Shown piece by piece: positions 2,467 through 56,236 of a stretch of 64,000 nt of DNA. The translations under genes were made by a program, and so were the position numbers. The stretch is taken from NCBI RefSeq assembly GCF_031954525.1, contig NZ_CP134867.1:4216001-4280000 (forward strand), in the 5' to 3' direction. The notes beneath the pieces are model-generated. The model was not told the origin of the DNA and ran no database searches. It saw nothing but the letters and a program-made list of their open reading frames with translations. Each line of letters starts with the position of its first letter. The first letter of the stretch is position 1. This stretch comes from Dyella sp. BiH032 (GTDB lineage Bacteria > Pseudomonadota > Gammaproteobacteria > Xanthomonadales > Rhodanobacteraceae).

Positions 2467-2983
2467 CCCCTCATCCCGCCTTCTCCCCGGAGGGGAGAAG
2501 GAGAAGTGATGGACCGAGGCGAAAACCAAACAAGAGCGAGCGAAGCGACGCCCCGTGCCGCTCTTGATCTCCCGGGTTCCCTTCGCGGCGGTGAGGGCTG
2601 GACGATCAGGCCGCCGCAGGCGGGCGGGGACAGGATGTCCCCGCCTTTTCGATCAGGGCAGGATGCCCTGTCGAAAAGCCCGGCCAGCCCTCAACGCACC
2701 CGGAGGTGGCGAAGGCCACCGGAGGGCGCCGCGCAGGGTGCCCTTCTTCTTGGTTACTTCTTCTCGTGGTCCCCCTTGAGGGGATGGGCAAGCAAGAAGA
2801 AGTAACTCGCTCTCCGGCAGGAGAGCGAAATCCTCGCCCCGGAGGGGCGAGACACGACTGGCGACCACGTCGCGACAACCGAGCCGAGTCGCCACTGGCT
2901 TCCGACTACGCCGGAATGACGAGAGTGAGAGTGCAAGGCGACCCTTAGCTCCCGTTGGGCTTCGCAAGCTCCCCCCAACCTAC
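2467..2983 (+). repeat. Multi-hairpin repeat element, copy A
   Basis: About 517 bp nearly colinear with copy B at 55751-56236, same orientation. Visible stems in order: TTCTCCCC-GGA-GGGGAGAA (2481-2499); AAGAGCG/CGCTCTT (2532-2565); GGCGGGGAC-AGGAT-GTCCCCGCC (2623-2645); TTTTCGA.CAGGGCA-GGA-TGCCCTG.TCGAAAA (2646-2677); GGTGGC-GAAG-GCCACC (2705-2720); GTTACTTCTTCT/AGAAGAAGTAAC (2753-2806) enclosing a smaller TCCCC/GGGGA hairpin; CGCTCTCC-GGCA-GGAGAGCG (2808-2827); CTCGCCCC-GGA-GGGGCGAG (2833-2851). It fills most of the 613-bp gap between the convergent oxidoreductase and Gfo/Idh genes. Short open frames inside look spurious. Function unknown. Confidence 0.85.
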
Positions 2984-23897: not shown

Positions 23898-23973
23898 TGG
23901 TGGGCCGTGACAGATTCGAACTGTCGACCAACGGATTAAAAGTCCGCTGCTCTACCGGCTGAGCTAACGGCCC
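23898..23973 (-). tRNA. tRNA-Lys (anticodon TTT)
   Basis: A 76-nt cloverleaf with encoded CCA. The acceptor stem is GGGCCGT/ACGGCCC, the D-loop TAGCTCAGCCGGTAGAGC, the anticodon loop ACTTTTAATC, and the T-arm contains GTTCGAATC. It matches E. coli tRNA-Lys closely. It has its own promoter and terminator downstream of queC. Confidence 0.98.
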
Positions 23974-53141: not shown

Positions 53142-53261
53142 TGGTGGCTCCTAGACCGCGCCTGCCCGCGCGGATCGCTGGGGATCGGGACAGGCGGAAG
53201 GAGCGCTGACGGACGCACGGATGCGGCTCGCCAGGAGCACGCCCACCGCATGTCCGGTTCG

Positions 53262-53452
53262 CCTCGAGGCCGGTCTCCGGGCTCGCGAGCGAAGGTCGGG
53301 GACCTTCCGGCGCGGCGCCTTCCCGTGCATGTCTGCACAGTGGCATTGGCCGCGCTTGTGCTCGCCTACCGTTGCGGGGGCAGCTCCGGCATAGCCGTAA
53401 AGACGGCGCACCGGATTCCCGTTTCAACCACCGGCCAAGCCGGCGGTCACCT
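53262..53452 (-). promoter_or_regulatory. Cobalamin riboswitch
   Basis: Minus-strand segments in order: GGTTGAAACGGGAATCCGGTG, GAGCTGCCCCCGCAACGGTA, the B12 box GCCAATGCCACTG (about 53338-53350), GGGAAGGCGCCGCGCCGGAAG, and GCGAGCCCGGAGACCGGCC near 53265-53288. It binds adenosylcobalamin and shuts off the operon. It leads btuB by about 120 nt. Between it and the divergent phospholipase gene, 53453-53644 shows no gene. Confidence 0.95.
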
Positions 53453-53644
53453 CAGGCGAGGGCGATAGTAGGGCTTGTTCACGCCGTTCGCCTAGTCCGG
53501 ACTGCCGTGGCGGACCGTCGCGAGCCATGCGCCTGTTCGCCGATCCGGCCGTTGTCGTCTTGCTGACGCATGCCTGGCAAGCGCTTGCAACATCGCCCCG
53601 CTTAGCTACGGCCGCCTGCGACAGGCGGACCGAGCGAACTCACC

Positions 53645-55750: not shown

Positions 55751-56236
55751 CCCCTCATCCCGCCTTCTCCCCGGAGGGGAGAAAGAGAAGTGCAGTACCG
55801 CGGCAAGCAAGAACAAAAACAAGAGCGAGCGAAGCGACGCTCCGTACCGCTCTTGATCTCCCGGGTTCCCTTCGCGGCGGTGAGGGCTGGACGATCAGGC
55901 CGCCGAAGGCGGGCGGGGACAGGACGTCCCCGCCTTTTTGATCAGGGCAGGGATGCCCTGTCGAAAAGCCCGGCCAGCCCTCAACGCACCCGCAGCAGCG
56001 AAGGCTGCGGAGGGCGCCGCGCAGGGTGCCCTTCTTCTTGGTTACTTCTTCTTGGGCAAGCAAGAAGAAGTAACTCGCTCTCCGGCAGGAGAGCGAAACC
56101 CTCGCCCCGGAGGGGCGAGACCAGACTGGCGATCACCTCTCACCGGTTCCCGGCTTGCGCCGGAATGACGAGAATGGGAGGGCGAGGTGATCGTCAGCGC
56201 CCGACGTTGAGGGTTCGCAAGCTCACCCCAACCTAC
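55751..56236 (+). repeat. Multi-hairpin repeat element, copy B
   Basis: About 486 bp homologous to 2467-2983. Stems visible: TTCTCCCC/GGGGAGAA-type hairpin; AAGAGCG/CGCTCTT; GGCGGGGAC/GTCCCCGCC; CAGGGCA/TGCCCTG; GCAGC-GAAG-GCTGC (55995-56008); GTTACTTCTTCTT-GGGCAAGC-AAGAAGAAGTAAC (56041-56074); CGCTCTCC/GGAGAGCG (56076-56095); CTCGCCCC/GGGGCGAG (56101-56119). It occupies most of the 688-bp gap between phospholipase C and the clpB terminator. Open frames within are not credible genes. Confidence 0.85.

Follow-up and report, generated by a model that had tools for sequence, protein, structure and literature searches.

Two stretches of the 64-kb window analyzed here (the whole stretch of DNA under study, C1:4216001-4280000, in a 5.25-Mb genome of 3 contigs in which C1 measures 5.0 Mb) raise the question of whether they represent a gene, a structured RNA, or a mobile element. 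A preliminary description had noted that they share order and sequence and consist of a chain of stems. Both observations proved correct: copy A can be aligned with copy B over the full length, without rearrangement and with 83% identity, and single-strand folding yields strong stems in a chain in each. The window contains exactly these two copies of the repeat, with the following parts.

2467-2983, plus strand: copy A, whole repeat, delimited by BLAST and by the alignment of 98 copies
2479-2501, plus strand: 5' hairpin unit of A, CCTTCTCCCC-GGA-GGGGAGAAGG
2586-2704, plus strand: conserved RNA-like core of A (covariance model R1, 113.4 bits)
2592-2601, plus strand: 5' strand of stem P1 of A, pairing with 2684-2693
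2609-2623, plus strand: short hairpin H1 of A, directly after the conserved lead GATCA
2624-2644, plus strand: hairpin H2 of A, loop C[AGGAT]G at 2632-2636, candidate CsrA-type site 1
2645-2678, plus strand: hairpin H3 of A, loop C[AGGAT]G, candidate CsrA-type site 2
2684-2693, plus strand: 3' strand of P1 of A
2752-2807, plus strand: H5 of A, stem GGTTACTTCTTCT / AGAAGAAGTAAC
2808-2827, plus strand: H6 of A, CGCTCTCC-GGCA-GGAGAGCG
2833-2851, plus strand: H7 of A, CTCGCCCC-GGA-GGGGCGAG
2954-2983, minus strand: 3' end of A, GTAG-tagged hairpin, REP-like (PMC3733652)
55751-56236, plus strand: copy B, whole repeat, delimited by BLAST and alignment
55875-55994, plus strand: conserved RNA-like core of B (covariance model R1, 107.7 bits)
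55881-55890, plus strand: 5' strand of P1 of B, pairing with 55974-55983
55913-55933, plus strand: hairpin H2 of B, loop C[AGGAC]G, candidate CsrA-type site 1
55934-55968, plus strand: hairpin H3 of B, loop C[AGGGAT]G, candidate CsrA-type site 2
56040-56075, plus strand: H5 stem of B
56076-56095, plus strand: H6 of B
56101-56119, plus strand: H7 of B
56205-56236, minus strand: 3' end of B, GTAG-tagged REP-like hairpin

Elsewhere, the window holds FMN and cobalamin riboswitches at 112-313 and 53251-53469 (both minus strand, above the Rfam cut-offs) and a tRNA at 23901-23973 (minus strand).

The two copies belong to a large family. Copy A gave at least 49 matching pieces in its own genome (40 of 232 candidates scored), and, when three mismatches or fewer are allowed, the stem motif CTTCTTNTTGGTTACTTCTTNTTG occurs there 97 times, always on C1, compared with 0 matches of the reversed control pattern. 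A BLAST search of fetched stretches of this genome with B as the query returned 98 copies above 300 bits. The covariance model recovered 97 of them in the same 568 kb at 98-120 bits, missing c015, which lacks H3, and adding one remnant at 46 bits; one more copy lies outside the fetched stretches, at C1:3702635. The chromosome thus carries at least 98 copies of a repeat of ~500 bases, and we rejected the possibility, left open by the preliminary description, that the only two copies stem from a single segmental duplication. Across the 98 aligned copies, the order is kept from about the boundary between ...TCGCGAGCACCCG and CCCCTCATCC as far as ...CCCAACCTACG; the part 5' of the 3' hairpin is variable. 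A longer 5' hairpin containing CTCTCCCACGGGGACTACCTTCGGGTCGCCC, or nearly so, was seen in 15 of the 98 (c000, c002, c012, c019, c021, c034, c036, c054, c056, c057, c066, c067, c071, c073, and c087), and a similar motif occurs at the site of copy A (site A) in the congener G004.

Several open frames overlap the copies, as a degenerate or real protein-coding sequence would lead one to expect. The one frame searched (55938-56168) returned 10 word-sharing candidates, none of them a homologue at E ≤ 0.001, and the copies differ by indels and by compensatory pair changes. We therefore rejected a coding origin as extremely improbable; the suggestion that widely annotated proteins are mistranslations of the element likewise found no support in this frame. 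Among genes called in the fetched stretches with a simple codon-usage gene finder, none crosses the midpoint of any of the 98 copies, and the truncated c090 abuts a gene.

To examine the conserved part, we used an alignment of 44 sequences from 16 genomes (A1), drawn from 61 placed sequences (5 of 12 from the own genome and 39 of 49 from elsewhere). It leaves out seven own copies, the misplaced L169, L172, and L175, and seven more, including the loop exceptions L153 and L176. Both sides changed in 24 of 31 pairs, against a shuffle mean of 15.0, and 0 of 500 shuffles reached 24. The compensated cells numbered 226 (shuffle mean, 63.1), and 95.2% of the cells were paired, compared with 34-48% when the pairing was slid. 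Compensatory change was seen in P1, H2, and H3, and 22 of the 31 pairs predicted by RNAalifold were compensated. These data strongly support an RNA-like fold for the shared core, in which stem P1 would close a structure made of the short H1 and the long hairpins H2 and H3. The preference of the preliminary description for a structured RNA or a non-autonomous element over a gene is supported by the 98 copies and the extensive compensatory change. Its two alternatives are not exclusive, since the copies form a repeat family and what they conserve is an RNA-like fold.

The arms of a palindrome can also stay complementary through correction at the DNA level. The repeat could be a palindromic, REP/REPIN-like element that is mobile but non-autonomous, forming single-stranded DNA hairpins at the replication fork, mobilized now or formerly by a Y1/HUH enzyme, and kept in pairing by palindrome correction. 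Compensated pair flips inside the own genome, with few intermediates, agree with such a mechanism, which leaves unexplained why P1 covaries although its strands in A are separated by 82 nt. It likewise leaves unexplained the ratio of G-U to A-C cells in A1 of 34:6, which favors an RNA read from the plus strand, with the reservation that cells are not independent. With the same reservation, the ratio was 4:1 in distant matches and 21:13 in own copies, the latter a weak test of the strand. Considering also the evidence on loops, placement, and mobility given below, we regard this explanation as unlikely, though it deserves weight.

The stems vary freely, and, apart from a few exceptions, the loops of H2 and H3 remain A(N)GGA(N), a combination that palindrome correction does not explain. 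In A1, the successive A, G, G, and A of the H2 loop are kept in 43, 44, 43, and 44 of the 44 sequences, and those of the H3 loop in 44, 44, 44, and 40, the remaining four being gaps from an alignment slip; the N positions hold any base or none. When the hairpins were located by their stems alone, which placed 49 of 52 non-own sequences (three could not be placed), A(N)GGA(N) fitted 43 of 49 H2 loops and 46 of 49 H3 loops, with L169, L172, and L175, which are misplaced, scored as misses in both hairpins. In this count, 15 different 5-nt stem arms carried the loops of H2, and likewise for H3. The true exceptions among these relatives all concern H2 (L153 and L176, ACGAT; L160, ATGAAT); those among own copies read ATGAAT (c019 and c066 in H2, c043 in H3). 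Thirteen distant matches at nine loci, eight of them outside the order, have unrelated stems, and 25 of their 26 loops fit, the other being AGGAAA; such matches lean toward A(N)GGA, because these loops formed part of the covariance model. The loop-blind count is free of this bias.

Hairpins with GGA or a control motif in the loop were counted on both strands. In 52 arms of relatives, the sense strand contained 95 hairpins with GGA, one with AGG, and none with GAG, and the antisense strand one, zero, and two, respectively. Twelve of the 95 lie outside the covariance model and are therefore also free of its loop bias. Strict hairpins numbered 0, 1, 2, 3, and 4 in 2, 12, 32, 5, and 1 of the arms. 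The own copies have exactly two A(N)GGA hairpins in 87 of 98 cases, one in nine, three in one, and none in one. With a minimum stem of 5, 6, or 7 bp, the copies hold 186, 186, or 95 such hairpins on the sense strand, compared with 33, 8, or 7 in 496,717 other bases on both strands, one of the eight being an element remnant.

The distance between the two GGAs is also kept, at 27-29 nt in all 44 rows of A1, 28-29 nt in the own copies that have exactly two sites (87), and 26-29 nt in 13 of 13 distant matches. According to PMC4066749, the main motif recognized by CsrA/RsmA is A(N)GGA, and a CsrA dimer bridges sites 10-63 nt apart, a range in which the element's GGA pairs fall. The same source notes the resemblance of A(N)GGA to a Shine-Dalgarno sequence, so that the loops might instead bind the anti-Shine-Dalgarno of the 30S subunit, or an unknown RNA-binding protein. 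We consider such a partner very unlikely, as the optional N before GGA and the free last base suit CsrA sites rather than AGGAGG, and paired sites at a fixed spacing suit a dimer.

We then related the copies to the called genes, taking as background all gaps of >50 bp in the same stretches, those of the copies included (++, 73; --, 81; -+, 62; +-, 59). The 98 copies lie in convergent (43), tandem sense (24), tandem antisense (20), and divergent (11) contexts. Convergent gaps are enriched (43/98 compared with 59/275, p = 7.5e-7) and divergent ones depleted (p = 0.005). The bias to convergent gaps is also what a 3'-end transcript element acting without CsrA, either an intrinsic terminator or a stabilizer of RNA, would produce. 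Terminator-like sites on both strands (three in A and four in B, against 0.7 and 0.8 in shuffles) and CTTTT directly 3' of H2 in many copies are consistent with it. The T run is absent in several distant members, the loop sequence would not be conserved in such an element, and the tandem contexts are even (24 sense and 20 antisense, p = 0.65). We consequently judge this explanation to be quite unlikely, and a cis-acting sense 3'-UTR element was rejected on the same lack of sense preference.

Orientation relative to replication lends weight to the mobile element of REP type, as does the convergent bias itself. With the terminus placed where the GC skew switches, near 2.75 Mb, the skew being computed from the fetched stretches only, 70 of the 98 copies run against the fork and 28 with it (p = 2.6e-5). 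All four gene contexts show this anti-fork majority (31:12, 15:5, 15:9, and 9:2), and setting the terminus at 3.05 Mb raises the count to 74 of 98. Two further features in its favor are the GTAG-tagged hairpin at the 3' end and the head-to-head inverted pairs of the core in several genera of relatives. Among 14 such loci, five have the pair spanned by a single self-complementary stretch of ~620-1160 bp; elsewhere, two separate arms match. Neither the inverted pairs nor the replication bias is visible from the window alone, and the A(N)GGA loops had not been remarked on in the preliminary description.

Against a mobile element of this type, the Y1 transposase domain (PF01797, RAYT-type) had no match in the own genome among four candidates scored, with a positive E. 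coli control, and present-day spread driven by a RAYT was rejected. Twelve element sites in four congeners were compared with those of the own genome; five have one or both flanks in common with an element site of the own genome, three of them both. The orthologous copies are 81.5-88.8% alike, and the same congener copies resemble other own copies to the same degree (medians, 82.9-88.2%), whereas copies inside one genome are 91-97% alike. This pattern suggests either gene conversion or an amplification that is specific to the species and targets the same places. In own copies c025, c029, c035, c082, and c087, the H3 stem combines arms of two different subfamilies (CAGGGC/GCCCTG and TCGGGC/GCCCGA), suggesting recombination between copies.

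The sites of A and B differ among congeners, so the core has been gained or lost there, as mobility would predict. At site A, the core is absent in G003, which has a GTAG REP pair there, and in G004 and G001; the comparison does not extend to G002 and G005, in each of which one flank is missing. At site B, it is present in the same orientation in G001 and absent in G002, G003, and G004, where REP pairs or 5'-type hairpins occupy the site; G005 lacks one flank. The presence of GTAG REP pairs but no core at site A or B in G003 and G004 speaks against REP character, as the REP may be a neighbor of the element rather than part of it. Different repeat families were observed per congener at the two sites (L301-L304, L313, L314, and L316), namely GTAG REP pairs, a GTAGGAGCG REP pair, 5'-type hairpins, and the core, as if A and B were insertion hot spots. 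Set against the MITE pattern of terminal inverted repeats and a target duplication, the congener sites were filled by other repeats, with no clean empty site among them. At site B of G003, where the core is absent, units related to the 5' hairpin of A are arranged as an inverted pair. The 5' unit of B (55751-55792, B 1-42) matches the Azospirillum plasmid NZ_CP022366.1:465780-465822 at 93%; as it occurs alone in a distant genus, this unit may be a small repeat in its own right. As this 43-bp match to the 5' unit only was the one match in 72,556 plasmid records, a plasmid origin was rejected.

In relatives, the DNA match of the element is mostly reduced to about B 99-356 and was present in 34 of 61 genomes. 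Model R1 found the core in 115 of 147 genomes of the family (scoring up to 25 candidates in each; 23 of 26 genera represented), in 48 of 200 genomes of the order sample (20 outside the family), in 27 of 274 of the class sample (25 outside the order), and in seven of 398 of the phylum sample, all seven within the same class; stricter filters above 40 genomes mean that these counts miss weak matches. None of 80 clpB loci from named organisms (730 kb) contained it; the best clpB match was to Dyella sp. RRB7, at 91% in its best segment. The own genome encodes csrA (92.7 bits). A second, weak CsrA-like frame lies on the second contig (L293, G000:C2:173478-173645; 25.8 bits, below the cut-off of 27). 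Of 31 genomes with the element that were tested, 26 had csrA (the other five are assemblies 73-95% complete), as did 17 of 20 tested genomes without it; as csrA is common across the class, this co-occurrence does not discriminate.

Together, these results lead us to propose, as a reasonably probable reading, that the repeat is a dispersed RNA with paired candidate CsrA sites that acts as a distributed CsrA/RsmA decoy. In a plus-strand transcript, the core would fold into a P1-closed junction holding H2 and H3, each of which would expose an A(N)GGA(N) loop, with the GGAs 27-29 nt apart. At that spacing, each copy would offer one site pair that a CsrA/RsmA dimer could bridge, and the ~98 copies would amount to close to 190 such sites in the chromosome. 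Upon transcription of the host regions, this sponge would lower free CsrA. Within each species, the repeat spreads or is homogenized. Transcription, CsrA binding, and CsrA titration are what we infer for the element. No sigma-70-like promoter was found in A or B, and the near equality of tandem sense and antisense copies implies that many would need a promoter of their own.

CsrA/RsmA is a global regulator, and, to our knowledge, Xanthomonas and its surrounding group have few known RNAs that act against it. One of them is RsmU (PMC7694677). A ~98-copy family with CsrA-type loops would, if the proposal is correct, constitute an unseen layer of CsrA/RsmA control and give bacterial intergenic repeats a function. 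A further-reaching and more tentative possibility is that an amplifying intergenic repeat is itself a CsrA-binding RNA scattered across the class (Gammaproteobacteria, judging from kinship). Free CsrA might then be set partly by genome-wide intergenic transcription, and not by one Csr/Rsm sRNA, and the repeat may profit by tuning the CsrA of its host.

Finally, we compared the element with known systems. We found no description of the repeat in the open PMC literature, judged by titles and the beginnings of abstracts, and Rfam 15 gave nothing at the gathering cut-off over the copies. At E ≤ 10, copy A had 12 matches, all far under the cut-offs and without a Csr/Rsm family or TwoAYGGAY among them. 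A distant copy, L289, one of five loci scanned, matched TwoAYGGAY at 34.2 bits (cut-off, 43; E = 0.042).

GTAG REPs and REPINs with their RAYT (PMC3733652; PMC3116915) share with the element a dispersed and intergenic location, the convergent bias, inverted pairs, and a GTAG-tagged 3' hairpin. REPs are palindromes of 20-40 bp (PMC3733652), a size that only the 3' end of the element fits; the element differs in its length of ~500 bp, its conserved loops, and a genome in which no Y1 domain was found. RsmU of Xanthomonas campestris, set beside the element by description only, is likewise a GGA-motif RNA of a related bacterium. PMC7694677 presents it as an RsmA-binding RNA derived from a 3' UTR, which was still bound by RsmA in vitro after all four of its GGAs had been changed. 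It is reported to come from one mRNA, XC1332, whereas the element is dispersed.

TwoAYGGAY (RF01731) is a proposed CsrA binder (PMC4333381) known from gamma-Proteobacteria and Clostridiales (PMC2864571). Judging by its name and the former paper, it resembles the element in having two hairpins with AYGGAY-type loops; unlike it, the element has P1, an H1 linker (about GATCAGGCCCGnAGGG), and a high copy number.

CsrB/CsrC and RsmX/Y/Z occur at one or few loci per genome under Gac-type control. The element has in common with them A(N)GGA in hairpin loops and several sites per RNA, which are the loop features of a sequestering RNA, and differs in its ~98 dispersed copies with two sites each, its closure by P1, and the lack of an Rfam match to those RNAs. 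Under the cut-off of every named family, the element is best read as one that would work like a CsrA-sequestering RNA.
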